From positions 1 through 64,000 of the forward strand of contig JAAUOM010000006.1 of NCBI GenBank assembly GCA_012034865.1: a stretch of DNA of 64,000 bases, given 5' to 3'. This stretch comes from Acaryochloris sp. CRU_2_0 (lineage in GTDB: Bacteria > Cyanobacteriota > Cyanobacteriia > Thermosynechococcales > Thermosynechococcaceae). A model generated the notes under the pieces. That model made no database searches, had not been told where the DNA came from, and saw only the letters and a program-made list of their open reading frames with translations. Shown in pieces: positions 45,336 through 51,959 of this stretch (positions are counted from its first letter, which is position 1; each line of letters starts with the position of its first letter). A program made the position numbers and the translations under genes.

Positions 45336-45572
45336 ATGAGATTTTGGAAAGGATTTTTCGCCAGCCTGATTTCGCCGGAGGTGACTCCCAGTGCCTTTAA
45401 GGTGGCTGTGGTTGTGGGTTCAGTCCTGTTTATCATCAACCACGGGAAAGCTTTGATGACTGGACAGATGAATGGCGATCGCTGGTTTTCGGTGGCGCTG
45501 ACCTACGTGGTTCCCTATTTGGTCAATGCTCACGGGCAGTACGTCGCCAAAAATAGGCGCAAACGGAACTGA
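45336..45572 (+). CDS. NrtS-like nitrate/nitrite transporter subunit
   Basis: 78 residues with two membrane segments (about 22-38, VAVVVGSVLFIINHGKA, and 50-66, FSVALTYVVPYLVNAHGQ). The pattern VxxxLxxINHG ... LTYxVPYxVN matches NrtS, the small nitrate/nitrite transporter described in marine cyanobacteria. Family members can be one or two subunits; only one gene is present here. No nitrate-assimilation gene is adjacent. Too short for certainty. Confidence 0.7.
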   Translation: MRFWKGFFASLISPEVTPSAFKVAVVVGSVLFIINHGKALMTGQMNGDRWFSVALTYVVPYLVNAHGQYVAKNRRKRN

Positions 45573-45611: not shown

Positions 45612-45938
45612 CTAAAGTGACTTTTGAATACTGTCTGAGTAAAGTTTTTTGGGTTTTAGTCCCACAATGCGATCGATGAGCTGATCTCCCTTAAACAGCA
45701 CCACCGTTGGCACACTGCGAACTCCAAGCTCTACGGCCAACTCAGGATCTTCAGTCATATCCACCTCAACTAGATGAAAGCTGCCCTGATGGTCAATTGC
45801 AAGCTGCTCTAATACTGGCTTGAGTGTTGCACAAGATCCGCAGTGTGGGGCACCCACTTCAACCAGAATCAGCTTGTCTGAGCTATGTCTCAACTGCTCA
45901 AAGGCAGAACTGCCTTGAAACGTGGTTTGGTCTAACAT
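45612..45938 (-). CDS. Thioredoxin
   Basis: 108 residues, no signal peptide, so cytoplasmic. The active site is GAPHCGSCATLKP (Cys33, Cys36), with His replacing the usual Trp and Ser the usual Pro of WCGPC. The cis-Pro is in VRSVPTVVLF. This non-classical active site should change the redox potential. It is the last gene of a five-gene minus-strand operon and is the likely partner of the reductase just upstream (58-base gap). Confidence 0.9.
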   Translation of the reverse strand: MLDQTTFQGSSAFEQLRHSSDKLILVEVGAPHCGSCATLKPVLEQLAIDHQGSFHLVEVDMTEDPELAVELGVRSVPTVVLFKGDQLIDRIVGLKPKKLYSDSIQKSL

Positions 45939-45996
45939 CGCTAAAATTCCTCGTCAGCATATAGATACAATCATTTCCTCTTCCAGATGCTTCTGC

Positions 45997-46956
45997 TCAG
46001 GCTGCAAAACTGAAGGCATTGGCTTGCTCCGCCAGCCAGCGTTCCGCTTCCAAGGCCGCCATGCATCCAGTTCCGGCGGCGGTGATGGCTTGGCGATACA
46101 GGTGATCTTGCACATCACCTGCGGCCCAGACCCCAGCAATATTGGTGGCTGTTGATTTGCCTGTCGTTTTGATATAACCTTGCGAATCTAAAGCCAGTTG
46201 TCCCTCAAAGAGCCGCGTATTGGGGCGATGACCGATCGCATAAAATAACCCGTTCACCTTCAGTTCAGATATAGCACCTGTGATTTGGTCTTGAAGCTGA
46301 ATCTGCTGAAGCACTTCATCGCCATGGGCGCTAATGGGTAATACCTGCCAGTGAATTTGAATTTTGCTGTGGTTCAAAACTCGGCTCTGCATGGTTTTGG
46401 AGGCTCGAAGGCGATCGCTACGAACCAGTAAATGCACCTGACTGGCATACTTGGTTAGATACAGCGCCTCCTCCGCAGCGGAATCACCGCCACCCACCAC
46501 CGCAATTTCAACATTGTGAAACAGCGGATTTGTACCATCACAAATGGCACAGGCAGAGATGCCATTGTTCCAAAACCGTTCCTCGCCCGGTAAGTGTAGC
46601 CGCTTTGCCGTTGCGCCCGTACAGACAATGACTGCATGGGTGTACATAATCAGATCCGTAGTTGCGATCCTAAACGGACGCTCCTGAAAATCTACCGCAA
46701 TCACGTCATCCGTGATTACCTGGGTGCCCCAACGAAGAGCCTGCTGCCGCATCTGTTGCATGAGTACTGGCCCTTGAATCCCCTCGGCAAACCCAGGAAA
46801 ATTCTCCACATCTGTCGTTGTCATCAACTGCCCCCCCGGACTCCCACCCGCCTCAAACCCCTCAAACAAAATGGGCTTAAGTTGAGCGCGTCCGGCATAA
46901 ATGGCAGCCGTATAGCCCGCAGGCCCAGACCCAATAATGACCAACTGCTCCATCAT
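45997..46956 (-). CDS. trxB: NADPH-dependent thioredoxin reductase
   Basis: 319 residues. FAD-binding motif IIGSGPAGYTAAIYAG at the start, redox-active Cys136-x-x-Cys139 (SACAICDG), NADPH motif VVGGGDSAAEEALYL, and the C-terminal FAD block GVWAAGDVQDHLYRQ. It transfers electrons from NADPH to thioredoxin. In most photosynthetic cells ferredoxin-dependent enzymes share this role. It starts 7 bases after the stop of the CcdA gene. Confidence 0.95.
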   Translation of the reverse strand: MMEQLVIIGSGPAGYTAAIYAGRAQLKPILFEGFEAGGSPGGQLMTTTDVENFPGFAEGIQGPVLMQQMRQQALRWGTQVITDDVIAVDFQERPFRIATTDLIMYTHAVIVCTGATAKRLHLPGEERFWNNGISACAICDGTNPLFHNVEIAVVGGGDSAAEEALYLTKYASQVHLLVRSDRLRASKTMQSRVLNHSKIQIHWQVLPISAHGDEVLQQIQLQDQITGAISELKVNGLFYAIGHRPNTRLFEGQLALDSQGYIKTTGKSTATNIAGVWAAGDVQDHLYRQAITAAGTGCMAALEAERWLAEQANAFSFAA

Positions 46957-46963
46957 GGCTCAC

Positions 46964-47815
46964 TTAACCTCCAAAGAACCATTGCGTACCTGTAAAGAGG
47001 TAGTAAGCCCCGGTCAAAATTAAGGCCAGACTGCCAAAGCGAATCACACCATCCGAGTGTTGCAAGAGGCGATTACTTTGTTTAGCTAACCCCGTAAACA
47101 AACTCGACAGAAAGATAATCATCGTATAGCCAAGGGCATAGAACACCATCGTCAGCGTTCCTAAAACAGGCGAACCCGTTCCCGCTGCCGCTGCCAACAC
47201 GGCAAATAACACCGGACTGGCACAGGGCGAACTCACTAAGGCAAAGGTCAACCCCACCCCATAGGGACCCGCTTGTGGCAGATTCACATTCATCTGTGGC
47301 AACGGGATTGTGATTGCCCCCATCAGCCATAGCCCCATGATTGCCATAATCAGCCCGACGGCGATGTTGATGTAACCACGAAACTCCACCATCACAAAGC
47401 CTGCAAAGGAGGAAACCAGGCCAAATAGACTCAGAATTGTGACTGCGCCTAAGACAAATAAACCTGCTTTGACAAAGGCATCCCCGCGCGATTTGATTTT
47501 GAGGGTGCCAATATAGCTGAGGTTAACGGGTAGCAGTGCCAAAATACAGGGGGATACGCTTGCTAACAACCCCCCAATAAAGGACAGCGGTAAGAGAATA
47601 AATGGATTTGCCGTATCTTGACGGTCAAACCATTGTTGGTACTGATTCTCAACGATAGAAATGACCCGTTCAATCGGGTGGCTCATCAACGGCCCAACGG
47701 TCAGAACTAAGATCAAAGCCAGAAGTCCTAAGCTGCCATAAATCAGCCATTTCCGCAGCGACCGATTGATTGGGGGCGGGGGACGCTTAGTGGAGGTGCG
47801 AGAGATTGGGGTCAT
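46964..47815 (-). CDS. CcdA-type thiol:disulfide membrane transporter
   Basis: 283 residues from the ATG at 47815, which has AAGGAG six bases upstream; an earlier ATG at 47836 lies before that site. A Pro-rich cytoplasmic N-terminus and one anchor helix (about 22-44) precede the six-helix CcdA core. The two redox cysteines are Cys90 (ASVSPCILALLPVN) and Cys198 (LVSSPCASPVLFAV). CcdA takes electrons from cytoplasmic thioredoxin and gives them to extracytoplasmic thioredoxin-like proteins. Its neighbours supply both partners. Confidence 0.9.
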   Translation of the reverse strand: MTPISRTSTKRPPPPINRSLRKWLIYGSLGLLALILVLTVGPLMSHPIERVISIVENQYQQWFDRQDTANPFILLPLSFIGGLLASVSPCILALLPVNLSYIGTLKIKSRGDAFVKAGLFVLGAVTILSLFGLVSSFAGFVMVEFRGYINIAVGLIMAIMGLWLMGAITIPLPQMNVNLPQAGPYGVGLTFALVSSPCASPVLFAVLAAAAGTGSPVLGTLTMVFYALGYTMIIFLSSLFTGLAKQSNRLLQHSDGVIRFGSLALILTGAYYLFTGTQWFFGG

Positions 47816-47860
47816 GGAGGTCTCCTTCCTTTTCAATACGTAGCGTTCCTCATCAACTCA

Positions 47861-48451
47861 CTAAGCTCCCGCCAAAGCGGCATCCAAAACTTTGGTGTAG
47901 TCTGCTTTGTTAGGGTTATTTTTGAACATTGCCAAAATTTTGCCCGTGGCTGGGTCAACAATGGCAACAGTGCTGGTTTTACTTTTGGTGGTTTCTAGAA
48001 ACTGAGATAGACCTAGTTTTTCGGCACTGGCTTCTGTTTCTTTGAGCTTGGCTTTATCCGTCACATCCAGCACGACAAAATGAGCCTTGTCAGCATACTC
48101 TTGCTTGAGTTGAGACAACGTAGGCTCAATGTTTTTACACCCCGGACACCAAGTTGCAAACACATCAATCACAACGGGTTTACCCTGAAGTTCTTGAGAT
48201 AGGGGACCTCCTACAGTCTGTGCTTTAGCGGCACAAGGATTTGCTTTAGAAGCACAAGGATTAGATTTAGCAGCACAAGGATTAGATTTAGCAGCACAGG
48301 GGTCTGTCTTCGACGCACAAGGATCCGCTTGGGCAACTGTACTGCTAGAAGTATTTGTGGTTTTAGCTGAACAGGGGTTGGTACAGCCTACGGTTACACC
48401 AAGGCTCAACACTGAAATTGCGGCAAGGGTGCCAAGATACTTTGCTTTCAT
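47861..48451 (-). CDS. Thioredoxin-like lipoprotein with tandem [N/D]PC[A/S][A/S]K repeats
   Basis: 196 residues. Signal with a lipobox-like VTVGC (Cys23). Six PC-motif units follow, with cysteines at 27, 45, 52, 59, 66 and 73; the last five are exactly seven residues apart. The thioredoxin-like domain (about 88-196) has active site WCPGCKN (Cys102, Cys105) and a VAIVDPATGK strand. The repeats may bind a soft metal or serve as reducible thiols; neither is shown. A strong GAGGAG lies upstream of the ATG. The paralogue at 48501 has two repeat units. Confidence 0.85.
   Translation of the reverse strand: MKAKYLGTLAAISVLSLGVTVGCTNPCSAKTTNTSSSTVAQADPCASKTDPCAAKSNPCAAKSNPCASKANPCAAKAQTVGGPLSQELQGKPVVIDVFATWCPGCKNIEPTLSQLKQEYADKAHFVVLDVTDKAKLKETEASAEKLGLSQFLETTKSKTSTVAIVDPATGKILAMFKNNPNKADYTKVLDAALAGA
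48225..48331. repeat. 21-bp tandem repeat inside the Cys-rich lipoprotein gene
   Basis: GCACAAGGAT-type units start at 48231, 48252, 48273, 48294 and 48315, exactly 21 bases apart, with slightly varied copies. They encode the seven-residue NPCAAKS units. Such in-frame repeats can expand or contract by slippage, changing the number of cysteines. Confidence 0.8.
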
Positions 48452-48500
48452 AAAAGCTCCTCTGTGGTAATGATCAAAATGGGTTAGATTGGGCGATCGC

Positions 48501-49022
48501 CTATTTCTTAGCCAGCGCCGAATCTAGAACCTTGGTGTAGTCAGGTTTATTAGGGTTATTGCGATGCTGCGCCAAGATTTTACCTGTCGCCGGATCAACA
48601 ATGGTCAAAGACCCCGTTTGGGTTTTATGGGCCGTAAAAAACTGACTGAGTCCTAGTTCTTTGGCTCTCGCTTCAGATTTGGCGGTCGTAGCTCTATTGG
48701 AAACATCTAGCACGACAAAATGAACTTTCCCTGCATATTGCTGCTTTAGCTGAGATAGCGTAGGCGCAATGTTTTTGCAGGCTGGACACCAACTGGCATA
48801 GATATCAACCACAACGGGTTTGCCCCGTAGTTTTTGGGCAAGCGGCCCGCCCACCGTTTTACCTTTAGCAGCGCAAGGGTTCGCTTTTGATGCACAGGGA
48901 TTTGCAAGGGCTTGTGTCCCAATGACTTCCGAGAGGATTCTGCTCCCAGCTTCGGGCTTGGCAAACGTTCCGATACTCAAGAGCGAGACAGTTGCCAATA
49001 GGGCTAGATACTTAACGTTCAT
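48501..49022 (-). CDS. Exported thioredoxin-like protein with two NPCA[A/S]K motifs
   Basis: 173 residues from ATG 49022, which has AGGAG nine bases upstream; the ATG three codons earlier overlaps the site. Signal segment about 4-22, then two PC motifs (Cys43 and Cys50) and a thioredoxin-like domain with WCPACKN (Cys79, Cys82). About half identical by eye to the following lipoprotein, so a tandem duplication. It has no lipobox and should be periplasmic or lumenal. It is the first gene of the operon. The cis-Pro region (TGSLTIVDPATGK) lacks the usual TP, as in the paralogue. Confidence 0.85.
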   Translation of the reverse strand: MNVKYLALLATVSLLSIGTFAKPEAGSRILSEVIGTQALANPCASKANPCAAKGKTVGGPLAQKLRGKPVVVDIYASWCPACKNIAPTLSQLKQQYAGKVHFVVLDVSNRATTAKSEARAKELGLSQFFTAHKTQTGSLTIVDPATGKILAQHRNNPNKPDYTKVLDSALAKK

Positions 49023-49257
49023 AATTTTCATCTCCTAAATAGCTTTGTTGCGGTTAATCTACATGCAGGTTTTATGGATACGCCTCATTCGGTAAACTGG
49101 CGTTTTAGTTCCGTTCTCAATTAAGGCTTAAGAAAATGAACCTCAGATGAAAAATGACAACAGATTACCTGAGAGGATGTCTGAAAAGGGTCAATCGGAA
49201 CCAAGCAATAAGAGTTTCAGTATTCATGGTGCAAGGGCAAGATAAGGGTTTCAGCCT

Positions 49258-49410: not shown

Positions 49411-49445
49411 ATGTTGGCGTTGCCTAGGTGCAGGAGAATCGAGGA

Positions 49446-50057
49446 ATGACAGGTCACAACTATTGGGTGGGTACAGGTGGACAATGTGTTGCTTGGGAAG
49501 ATAACCCTGAGAATGTAGCGCGAACCCAACCCTATCGTTTATATCGGTTTCTGAGCGACCTCGATGATATCCTGGAGCAGGAGCTAGATGATCAGCGGCG
49601 ATTAGCCCTGATCTGTCCCTTGGTGCGCCGTTTACTGAACAGTTCGACCTGGCTGCTGGACCATTATTTACCCCCCGACCCCGATACGGGCTGGTCGGTA
49701 CTCATGCTCTACGATGAACCGGACTATCCCATTACGGTACAAACCGTGGTCTGGACACCAGGAAGTGTTTCTCCAATCCATAATCATGCGGCTTGGGGCA
49801 TTGTGGCACTCCTGAGCGGTCAGGAGAAGAATATGTTTTGGCAGCGATCTGGGGTAGCAGACAGACCTGATTGCATCGAACCAGTGGGCGATCGCACCCT
49901 CTCCCCCGGCGATATCCTGTGCCTCATGCCGGATACCATCCACCACATTGAAGCCTGCTCTGATCAGCCAATCATTAGCTTTAATCTCTACGGCGAAACC
50001 AATTACACTCAGCGCTTTCAGTTTGATCCGGTACAGGGCACTGCCCAGCTTTTTTAG
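49446..50057 (+). CDS. Cupin protein, cysteine-dioxygenase-like
   Basis: 203 residues from ATG 49446, preceded by a GAGG Shine-Dalgarno sequence. Cupin metal motif SPIHNHAAWGIVALLSGQEK, matching the cysteine dioxygenase type I family (HxH with a distant His in DTIHHIEACS). Such enzymes use Fe(II) and O2 to oxidise thiols or related small substrates. The N-terminal helical part (RFLSDLDDILEQELDD) is as in bacterial members. The Rieske gene 156 bases downstream on the same strand suggests an oxygenation pathway. Confidence 0.8.
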   Translation: MTGHNYWVGTGGQCVAWEDNPENVARTQPYRLYRFLSDLDDILEQELDDQRRLALICPLVRRLLNSSTWLLDHYLPPDPDTGWSVLMLYDEPDYPITVQTVVWTPGSVSPIHNHAAWGIVALLSGQEKNMFWQRSGVADRPDCIEPVGDRTLSPGDILCLMPDTIHHIEACSDQPIISFNLYGETNYTQRFQFDPVQGTAQLF

Positions 50058-50213
50058 GAGAGTATGCCTAACTTTTCTCAATGGGTGTGGGCATGGACGG
50101 TTCGCAGAAAGAGTAGGATGATGGCTGTTCCTGGTGGACGGAGAAACAGGAAAGGCATTAGGATCATACTTATGCATCCCAGCAGAAGCTGTCTATACAT
50201 GAGGCAGGTGGAT

Positions 50214-51959
50214 ATGGAGACTCTAGAGCGCGATCGCAACTTTGTCCGAGTTGCCAACCTAGCAGATCTGTCGCCATCGGGCTGTCATGTGGTCTATGTG
50301 GCGGGCAAAGCCATTGCCCTATTCCAGGAAAATGATCAGGTCTACGCCATTGATAACCGCTGTCCCCATATGGGTTTTCCCTTGCATAAAGGCACAGCCA
50401 AAGATGGCATTCTCATCTGTCATTGGCACCATGCCCGCTTTGATCTAGCCAGTGGGGGCACCTTTGATCTGTGGGCCGATGATGTCCAGTCTTTTCCGGT
50501 AGAAGTGCGGGAGAGTCAGATTTGGGTGGATCTGTCTGCGCCGCTGGATCGCCCTGCCTATCAACGGCAGCGCTTAATCGATGGTCTGGAGCAAAATATT
50601 TCTTTAGTCATTGCCAAAGCGGTATTGGCCTTGATGGCCGCCGATACCGATCCCGCCGAACTCCTAGAAATGGGTCTGACCTTTGGGGCTCGTTATCGAC
50701 GGGAAGGCTGGGGTGCGGGCTTAACGATCTTGACTTGTATGGCCAATCTTTTGCCCTCCTTAGATCCAGCAGATCGCCCCTTAGCCCTGTATCACGGTCT
50801 CAGTGCCGTTGCCCGCGATTGTGCGGGTTCACCCCCTCGGTTTGATATTCAGCCCCTACCTCTACCTCAATCCCCGACAGAGTTCCCCACCCTCAAACGC
50901 TGGTTTCGAGAGTTTGTCGAAGTTCGAGATGCGCAAGGGGCAGAACGTTGTTTGGTCTCAGCGATTCGTGGCCAAGCCCAGCCCCAGGAAATTGCCGATA
51001 TGCTGTTTGCTGCGGCTACGGATCATCGGTTTCTAGATGGGGGACATACCCTAGACTTTACCAATAAAGCCTTGGAAGCCTTAGATCTGGCCGGATGGCA
51101 GCAGGCAGAAGCCATTCTCCCCAGTTTGGTTCGGGGCTATACGGAAGCCGAACGCATGGAAGAGTCTAGTGCTTGGCGCAGCCCCGTGGATTTGGTTGCC
51201 ATTCTAGAGCGAGCCTTTAGCCAGTTGCCAGAGGTGTGGCAGGACGGCCAACCTCATCAGACTCCGATCAACGCCGACGCCCTAGTGTCTGTACTGTTAG
51301 GGGATAACCCTGAACACATTGCTCAGGAACTTCTGCAAGGGATTCGGCAAGGTTATTCAGCCTTTGATTTGGCCCAAGTCGTCACCTATGCCGCCGCCCA
51401 ACGCCTAGTGCAGTTCAGTACCAATAACGATTTTCAAGATTGGGACATTGCCCACCACACGTTTACGTTTGCCAATGCAGTCTGTCAGGGTTTACGACGG
51501 GTACCAACGCTGGAGTTATTGCGAGGCGTCTTTGATGCAGCCATGCGCATCTATCTCAATCGCTTTTTGAATATGCCCCCCGTACCGCTGCCCCAACCAG
51601 GAGAGCGACAGATACCGGAGGATTACTTACAAGAGCTACCCGATTTGCTGGATCGCCAGCAACAGGTGAAAGCGGTGGGTCAGAGCGTGGTGCAATATCT
51701 ATTCAACGAGGGAGATCCCCAACCCCTTTTAGCCCATCTGGGGAAATTGCTGCTGCGGGAAGATCGCAACTTCCATACCATTCAGGAAGTGGAAGCCACC
51801 TTTCGCCAGTATGGACAATGGCCCCATGCCCAGACCAGACCTTACCTATTGGTTGCTGCGGCTCGCTATTTAGCGGCCCATGCCCCTACGAACAGAGCCC
51901 AAGGTCAAACCTATCAAATTGCCGATCGCCTGCATCGTGGTGATCAGGTATTTGAATAG
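50214..51959 (+). CDS. Rieske [2Fe-2S] protein with large C-terminal domain of unknown function
   Basis: 581 residues from the methionine at 50214 (METLERDRNF); an upstream ATG at 50064 would add an unrelated-looking basic stretch. Rieske ligands are Cys50, His52, Cys69 and His72 (RCPHMG, ICHWHH), domain 10-110. The remaining 470 residues are helical with His-containing motifs GGHTLDFTNKALEAL and HHTFTFANAV, which may bind a second metal. I do not recognise this domain with certainty. No membrane segment. Its stop is 9 bases before the next gene. Confidence 0.8.
   Translation: METLERDRNFVRVANLADLSPSGCHVVYVAGKAIALFQENDQVYAIDNRCPHMGFPLHKGTAKDGILICHWHHARFDLASGGTFDLWADDVQSFPVEVRESQIWVDLSAPLDRPAYQRQRLIDGLEQNISLVIAKAVLALMAADTDPAELLEMGLTFGARYRREGWGAGLTILTCMANLLPSLDPADRPLALYHGLSAVARDCAGSPPRFDIQPLPLPQSPTEFPTLKRWFREFVEVRDAQGAERCLVSAIRGQAQPQEIADMLFAAATDHRFLDGGHTLDFTNKALEALDLAGWQQAEAILPSLVRGYTEAERMEESSAWRSPVDLVAILERAFSQLPEVWQDGQPHQTPINADALVSVLLGDNPEHIAQELLQGIRQGYSAFDLAQVVTYAAAQRLVQFSTNNDFQDWDIAHHTFTFANAVCQGLRRVPTLELLRGVFDAAMRIYLNRFLNMPPVPLPQPGERQIPEDYLQELPDLLDRQQQVKAVGQSVVQYLFNEGDPQPLLAHLGKLLLREDRNFHTIQEVEATFRQYGQWPHAQTRPYLLVAAARYLAAHAPTNRAQGQTYQIADRLHRGDQVFE

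Follow-up and report, generated by a model that had tools for sequence, protein, structure and literature searches.

The five-gene unit described here lies within a window of 64,000 nucleotides of Acaryochloris sp. CRU_2_0 (contig JAAUOM010000006.1, positions 1 to 64,000 of the forward strand), whose genome assembly comprises 4.89 Mb in 259 contigs and is 92% complete. A preliminary description had read it as a thiol-redox operon encoding, in order of transcription, two exported thioredoxin (Trx)-like proteins with repeated cysteine units, a CcdA membrane thiol carrier, an NADPH-thioredoxin reductase (NTR) and a thioredoxin with an HCGSC active site. Open reading frame (ORF) calls confirmed five ORFs at this place, all on the minus strand and, with the starts chosen there, correctly spaced by 49, 45, 7 and 58 bases (Table 1). 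The interval first given, 45612-49022, was right as to place but not as to its end, since the ATG of gene 1 is at 49031. Scanning the window for transcription signals placed three terminator-like sites inside genes 3 and 4 and one promoter-like site inside gene 1 on the minus strand. With counts over both strands of 8 terminator-like sites vs. 4.2 expected and 2 promoter-like sites vs. 4.3 expected, the scan says little about single transcription.

Table 1. Genes and features of the unit and its divergent neighbour (window numbering)
Feature	Position	Strand	Evidence or remark
Gene 1: exported thioredoxin-fold protein, 176 aa	48501..49031	-	ORF; Pfam Thioredoxin 48.9 bits
Gene 2: exported thioredoxin-fold protein, 196 aa	47861..48451	-	ORF; Pfam Thioredoxin 44.2 bits; AlphaFold2 (AF2) model
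Cys-repeat array of gene 2 (residues 44-78)	48218..48322	-	21-bp tandem DNA repeat 48224-48298
Gene 3: CcdA, membrane thiol carrier, 283 aa from ATG	46964..47815	-	DsbD_TM; alternative TTG start 47836
Gene 4: NADPH-thioredoxin reductase, NTR1 type, CAIC redox site, 319 aa	45997..46956	-	Pyr_redox_2; TIGR01292
Gene 5: TrxE-type thioredoxin, active site HCGSC, 108 aa	45612..45938	-	ORF; Pfam Thioredoxin
Operator-like direct repeat, TTCAT-N6-TTCAT core	49135..49162	-	104-131 bp upstream of gene 1 ATG; 16.9 bits
Divergent cupin, bacterial thiol dioxygenase (3-mercaptopropionate dioxygenase) family	49446..50057	+	GTG start at 49428 also possible

Genes 1 and 2 each encode a hydrophobic N-terminal segment (residues 6-24 in gene 2), a Cys-repeat stretch and a Trx domain, which bears out the exported pair with repeated Cys units. 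Gene 2 carries six PC[A/S] units, five of which form a 7-residue array encoded by a tandem DNA repeat that is 90% self-similar, and gene 1 carries two NPCA[A/S]K units with cysteines Cys46 and Cys53. The gene 2 product is probably a lipoprotein, judging by a lipobox in its sequence. The Trx fold was matched by AF2 modelling and Foldseek; in the gene 2 model, the predicted local distance difference test score (pLDDT) exceeds 90 in the Trx domain and the tail is of low confidence. In an alignment of 56 exported Trx sequences (54 of 58 relatives collected, four near-duplicates being left out, together with the two of the window), CxxC is present in 56/56 (WCPAC in gene 1, WCPGC in gene 2). The cis-proline before strand 4 is gone in all 56, its position being occupied by Ser, Gly or Ala: Gly in gene 1 and, in gene 2, Ser160, which immediately precedes a modelled strand at 161-165. 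The exported proteins are therefore a variant of the Trx fold. In thioredoxin mutants, loss of the cis-proline lets such sites bind metal. Every curated TlpA/ResA/DsbE model listed for the exported Trx proteins scores below its cut-off, with gene 1 reaching 30.0 of 123.15 and 22.2 of 170 with dsbE/ResA models.

Gene 3 encodes a CcdA of the DsbD family (DsbD_TM, 35.4 bits vs. a cut-off of 27.1), in which Cys90 and Cys198 are conserved in 75/75 homologues; two further CcdA-like matches, of 32% and 26% identity, the latter with a stop, were found elsewhere in the window genome. Gene 4 matches Pyr_redox_2 in Pfam and TIGR01292 (378.8 bits vs. a cut-off of 343.45). It contains a CxxC (CAIC) and the NADPH motif GxGxxA/G (GGGDSA), the CxxC region being preceded by WNNG and followed by TNPL, and is devoid of the GR/KG and FF Trx-binding motifs at the positions where we take these to lie. 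The list of motifs is that of Mallen-Ponce 2022 (PMC9025218), where NTR1 is a stand-alone NTRC-related NTR lacking GR/KG and FF, with a non-canonical Trx (TrxE) encoded downstream, and where WCXXC disulfide isomerases are listed among the NTR1/TrxE neighbours. Gene 4 likewise encodes a stand-alone NTR that belongs to the NTR/NTRC clade and is followed by the gene of a non-canonical Trx, and genes 4 and 5 are the known cyanobacterial pair NTR1/TrxE (alr2204/alr2205 in Anabaena), related to NTRC but split into two proteins. Among solved structures, gene 4 best matches the chain 7p9d (487 aa, E 2.1e-118), whose C-terminal part matches gene 5 (E 3.5e-19); the entry itself says thioredoxin reductase, and we take it to be an NTRC. 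The HCGSC site, first described as unusual, is real but typical of its family, since H/Y-C-x-[S/A]-C occurs in 25/26 distinct TrxE-type sequences, gene 5 among them, and the remaining sequence is truncated. In Anabaena, TrxE/Alr2205 is reduced by NTR (alr2204) and by NTRC, not by FTR (PMC7242069). Gene 4 is the only NTR match at E 0.001 in the window genome, and no fused NTRC was found among its matches, within the 92% of the genome that the assembly represents.

Linkage of these genes was analyzed across genomes. Scanning a genome collection with genes 1 and 2 yielded 80 loci, the best 80 of 258 matches. Sixty of them (L018-L077) contain an exported Trx; 59 are labelled cyanobacterial and one, L047, Gracilibacteria. 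In 57/60, a CcdA gene was identified next to the exported Trx, and the three exceptions are two loci that end at a contig edge (L035 and L062) and one with a broken CcdA (L033). Searches with gene 4 returned matches in at least 185/242 genomes of the class at E 1e-40, from which we sampled 20 of the 22 listed matches that appeared unfused or short, together with 20 of the many fused ones. TrxE adjoins the NTR in 7/20 of the unfused type, all seven with CcdA and six with an exported Trx; with the window, NTR1 and TrxE thus adjoin CcdA in 8/8 genomes, one of which (L107) has a broken NTR, and the exported Trx is also present in 7/8. Based on both sets of counts, a lack of conserved linkage in other genomes can be rejected. 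The core pair is exported Trx plus CcdA, with NTR1 and/or TrxE present in 23/60 loci. The remaining 13/20 unfused-type NTRs have neither TrxE nor CcdA as neighbours. Twelve of them belong to the NTRC clade and one (L117) stands beside the operon clade, whose support was 0.97 without L103 and 0.26 with it (FastTree, 52 distinct sequences). The twelve (L104-L106 and L108-L116), which occur in one family and have no TrxE neighbour, seem to be NTRC proteins having lost the Trx domain. Fused NTRC was also considered as a partner and discarded, since CcdA or exported Trx was present in 0/20 of its loci, five of which lie on stretches shorter than 10 kb.

The putative operon genes are under purifying selection: ratios of nonsynonymous to synonymous substitution rates (dN/dS), computed with a simple Nei-Gojobori script, were 0.07-0.13 for NTR, 0.08-0.10 for CcdA and 0.09-0.42 for TrxE over 14 pairs, a fifteenth having a saturated dS. 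Across the 242 genomes, matches to the exported Trx were found in 45, some of them to the repeat segment alone. The earlier reading, that all parts needed to carry electrons from NADPH to the outside are present in one unit, was sound insofar as the unit is conserved and the chain of families complete; the unit was drawn too small, as a cupin, an operator and, in about half of the cupin loci, a kinase and a regulator also belong to it.

The divergent cupin gene recurs beside these operons. A profile of 22 relatives matches the 3-mercaptopropionate dioxygenase 6xb9 (E 3.3e-16), and the AF2 model (pLDDT 92) adopts the thiol dioxygenase fold (TM score 0.73); in Pfam, the window cupin has no match and CDO_I is assigned to 4/22 members. 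The three-histidine site is present, with H112, H114 and H166 (ligands by homology) invariant in the 22 sequences, and the Ser-His-Tyr network is changed to Ser-Asn-Tyr by Asn180, which is also invariant in them. An H157N variant of 3-mercaptopropionate dioxygenase stays active with a kcat about 20-fold lower (PMC10966181). Among loci of at least 9 kb, the cupin is present in 26/28 with two or more repeat units and in 0/14 with fewer, at a distance of at most 0.61 kb from the exported Trx in 20 of the 26 and of 1-5.3 kb in the others. The corresponding values are 30/41 vs. 0/19 for all 60 loci and 23/32 vs. 0/13 once loci are collapsed to 45 names, all of them counts that ignore shared ancestry. 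Two or more units also track NTR/TrxE, though less strongly (21/41 vs. 2/19). The role of the cupin might be to deplete small thiols, to signal oxygen or to modify the tails prior to their export.

The repeat itself is found beyond Trx proteins. Seven matches of the exported-Trx search covered the leader and repeat only (L138-L144) and correspond to short proteins that look secreted, have 72-113 residues and 5-11 units and lack a Trx domain; the cupin is present at each of these loci, lying 3.7 kb away in L143. A Cys-repeat ORF was detected within 1.5 kb in 11/20 higher-scoring cupin loci of genomes without an exported Trx match, three of the 11 being fused to a YHS domain, and in 0/20 lower-scoring cupin loci; these 40 loci were selected by hand in order of rank, and the two groups overlap in identity. 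A leader of the form M[K/R]xKY... is common to the stand-alone, the YHS and many of the Trx forms, and many first-copy exported Trx genes have a different leader. The unit number ranges from 0 to 11 among relatives, and the unit remains PC[ASG] in distant genomes. No family for the Cys repeats themselves was found in Pfam or NCBIfam. In L155, a repeat-only gene of 11 NPCA[A/P]K units (5758 onward, plus strand) is located between the two exported Trx genes of the operon. YHS-like fusions were seen at L079 4821-5396, L159 4839-5585, L161 5316-5912 and L165 5365-6165; L159 reaches 161 bits against the cut-off of 70 for YHS_seleno_dom, and the other three were judged by eye. Beside the stand-alone repeat genes, two further small secreted-looking proteins are encoded (L138 5516-5977, L143 4261-4740 and relatives), neither with a Pfam or NCBIfam match; "cupredoxin-like", as we call L143 4261-4740, is a name given by eye only.

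Word counts were compared over 64 regions preceding genes that carry at least two units, including the regions of two spurious GC-rich ORFs, L073 and L077, both without a site. Words were shared by up to 24 regions, compared to 7-8 in shuffles, a control that ignores shared ancestry, and 0/12 in repeat-free controls. The resulting operator motif, TCcATCTaaTCTTCATCTGAcACTCATt, consists of repeats 11 bp apart, with about 36 expected sites in the 64 regions; of 14 contrast regions, L055 and L056, which have one unit and TrxE each, scored high and the other 12 did not. In 242 whole genomes, a strict pattern gave 12 sites in 11 genomes, at least four of which are also among the motif-learning regions, and its reversed control gave none. 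All 12 sites are shortly upstream of an exported Trx, one beside a degraded copy, and no regulon beyond the operon was found with this pattern in the 242 genomes. The window site is the best on both strands of the window (the next reaches 9.3 bits), and it is too divergent for the strict pattern. A looser pattern found one site in the window genome, at the operon, a count that alone proves nothing because its reversed control found two. The core of the window site resembles the Synechocystis CopR site TTCATN4-5TTCAT (PMC4182526), its spacing being one or two bases longer.

The cupin loci of the exported-Trx scan include a histidine kinase in 19/32 cases and both a kinase and an OmpR-type regulator in 16/32, some of these loci being cut by contig ends. 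The kinase has a cysteine, Cys139 in L018 numbering, that is located between two predicted membrane helices and is invariant in 25/25 distinct sequences, including that of the window genome. In many relatives, the kinase and regulator genes lie behind the cupin, where the window has a gene for a 631-residue Rieske-domain protein (50064-51959, plus strand).

We consider it somewhat more likely than not that NADPH, NTR1, TrxE, CcdA and exported Trx form a thiol relay that is regulated and serves the space outside the cytoplasm, with the Cys tail as a sink for thiols or soft metals. NADPH would reduce NTR1, and NTR1 would reduce TrxE, in the cytosol; TrxE may then reduce the cysteine pair of membrane CcdA, from which the pair of exported Trx-fold proteins may receive electrons in the thylakoid lumen or the periplasm, two electron steps put forward from family roles and linkage. 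The disordered Cys-repeat tails would stay as free thiols and take up soft metals (Cu(I)-like) or oxidants locally, and a two-component sensor with an invariant extra-membrane cysteine would turn the unit on through the direct-repeat operator; free-thiol tails, the action of the regulator on the operator and the nature of the signal are presumed here. The metal buffering or thiol reservoir first attributed to the Cys repeats may be kept as a prediction with circumstantial support. Among copper, another soft metal and an oxidant as targets of the sink, metal has the most hints, none of them decisive. Related cyanobacteria retain parts of the set along with its own switch, a pattern that hints at a poorly known protection of the cell's outer compartments from metals or oxidants.

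NTR1/TrxE has so far been an NADPH-driven orphan pair for which no target is known and whose genes have even been taken for possible pseudogenes. Judging by the linkage, its electrons would go to CcdA and hence reach the periplasm or thylakoid lumen. If the relay operates as proposed, there would be an NADPH-driven thiol supply to compartments whose donor in plant chloroplasts is not known according to PMC3842002, where Trx-m is the candidate. The association of the repeat with the cupin, together with the operator, outlines a regulated module spread over many cyanobacteria. A bolder view, which we regard as improbable, is that the Cys-repeat leader represents a new class of exported thiol buffer (alone, on Trx or on YHS), with a dedicated cytosolic iron cupin tuning the cysteines while they are still inside the cell, much as MNIO does for bufferins but by an unrelated enzyme, and NTR1-TrxE-CcdA recharging it outside.

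Several observations weigh against the proposed relay and its control. NTR and/or TrxE were called in just those 23 of the 60 exported-Trx loci, therefore other donors must serve elsewhere, and in L018, the nearest relative among the matches listed, NTR was not found and TrxE is truncated. Some NTR1/TrxE operons (L022, L031 and L100) have no operator match and no cupin in the locus. The L018 kinase has a heavy-metal sensor family as its best model at 245 bits, below the cut-off of 292.55, and the L018 regulator is also below the cut-off of the metal model (223.9 of 279.2 bits), its best model being NblR (259.4 of 300) and not a metal regulator. No kinase or regulator adjoins the window operon, the best candidates being on another contig; this pair, on contig C42, is accompanied by genes that also flank it in the relative L138, and it may therefore regulate the unit in trans. 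Further, the shared ancestry that the repeat-cupin counts ignore has to be borne in mind, and on published immunoblots neither NTR nor Alr2205 of Anabaena was detected in the conditions used (PMC7242069).

Alternative explanations were weighed against the same data. A dedicated resistance module for copper (or mercury/silver), whose tails bind metal and are kept reduced by the relay, is possible, although we hold it doubtful: the CopS/CztS-like kinase, the CopR-like half-sites and the YHS fusions argue for it, and TlpA, which reduces the copper chaperone ScoI, provides a precedent (from a title among the references of PMC8945050), whereas the L018 kinase and regulator fall below the metal-model cut-offs and the CopR sites found in Synechocystis are those of the cop, mntC and nrs promoters, with no gene whose name begins with sll068 in the main text (PMC4182526). 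Unlikely is a general envelope disulfide reductase or isomerase with a Cys tail arising as a by-product of repeat slippage, which would account for the WCxxC Trx fold, the self-similarity of the 21-bp repeat and the varying number of units; the repeat, however, tracks the cupin and occurs alone or on YHS domains, its unit is kept in distant genomes, and loss of the cis-proline would be odd for an isomerase.

Slightly less probable still is a role in the assembly of c-type cytochromes or b6f, with CcdA and an HCF164/ResA-like reductant. A CcdA with a lumen-facing Trx-like protein is the known cytochrome c pathway of plants and bacteria (PMC3842002), and Synechococcus and Cyanobium records also have exported Trx and CcdA without NTR1/TrxE. 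Nevertheless, the other CcdA-like matches in the genome could serve that role, the dsbE/ResA scores are far below cut-offs, the exported Trx lacks the cis-proline, and its presence in only 45/242 genomes is low for an essential step. Finally, NTR1/TrxE and neighbours might be decaying genes, in line with the pseudogene suggestion printed for Anabaena (PMC7242069), the patchy distribution, the truncated TrxE of L018 and the broken copies in L033, L107 and G158:C3:92402. This we judge very improbable, given conserved catalytic cysteines and dN/dS values that point to intact selection.

Compared to known systems, the relay shares with NTR1/TrxE (Alr2204/Alr2205) the stand-alone NTR of the NTRC clade, the atypical-site Trx directly downstream and the WCXXC Trx-like genes upstream. 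As a difference, the operon as presented here includes CcdA, a Cys-repeat exported Trx, an operator and a thiol-dioxygenase-family cupin, and a membrane acceptor is therefore proposed. Its reductase and Trx modules are homologous to those of NTRC but are encoded by two genes. With the CcdA-ResA/CcmG/HCF164 and DsbD pathways, it has in common the route from Trx through CcdA/DsbD to an exported Trx-fold reductant, but it has its own NADPH reductase and its exported Trx lacks the cis-proline and bears Cys repeats. CcdA is not mentioned by name in the main texts of the two papers on NTR1/TrxE (PMC9025218 and PMC7242069), a scope that stops short of the neighbourhoods in Figure 4 of PMC9025218 and the supplements. 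NTR and the HCGSC thioredoxin are known as NTR1/TrxE, with a neighbourhood partly in print. The full assembly, its parts being known, was not met in the literature searched, with papers covered in part. Full-text searches gave no publication with NPCAAK or four variants; those combining cyanobacteria, CcdA, thioredoxin reductase, operon and disulfide gave two papers, on Deinococcus and Leptospirillum, and those combining cyanobacteria, YHS domain and cysteine-rich repeats gave none.

Bufferins and EGKCG-repeat precursors, which are modified by MNIO, resemble the repeat proteins in having a signal peptide followed by Cys repeats and an adjoining iron oxygenase gene, but here the oxygenase is a cupin of the thiol dioxygenase family and not an MNIO. 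Copper is chelated by bufferins (PMC12452194). As a general partner, MNIO was rejected, being present in 14/242 genomes and in 4/45 of those from the exported-Trx search; the exception is the window's genus, with an MNIO gene in 5/6 genomes, where MNIO may play a part. The repeat genomes G188 and G195 also have MNIO. In the window genome, the MNIO gene (PF05114) is on another contig (G000:C8:23833-24456; L215 4932-5762) next to a 108-residue ORF whose product ends in PCPACGMG, and the two seem to make up a modified-peptide locus of their own.

In Synechocystis salina (L065 5866-7931), genes for a repeat-free exported Trx, CcdA and a sigma-factor-like protein lie in a row; unlike the main unit, this locus is devoid of repeats, cupin and NTR1/TrxE. 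They are probably counterparts of Sll0685-Sll0687, of which Sll0685 is called thioredoxin and sll0686 and sll0687 are listed as a cytochrome c-type biogenesis protein and an ECF sigma factor, respectively. Near gene 5 of the window, a small membrane protein of the NrtS family (NF038050, 101.9 bits) is encoded at 45336-45572 on the plus strand, and a gene of this family recurs with the same operon in L018, L021, L023, L036, L045, L055 and L151.

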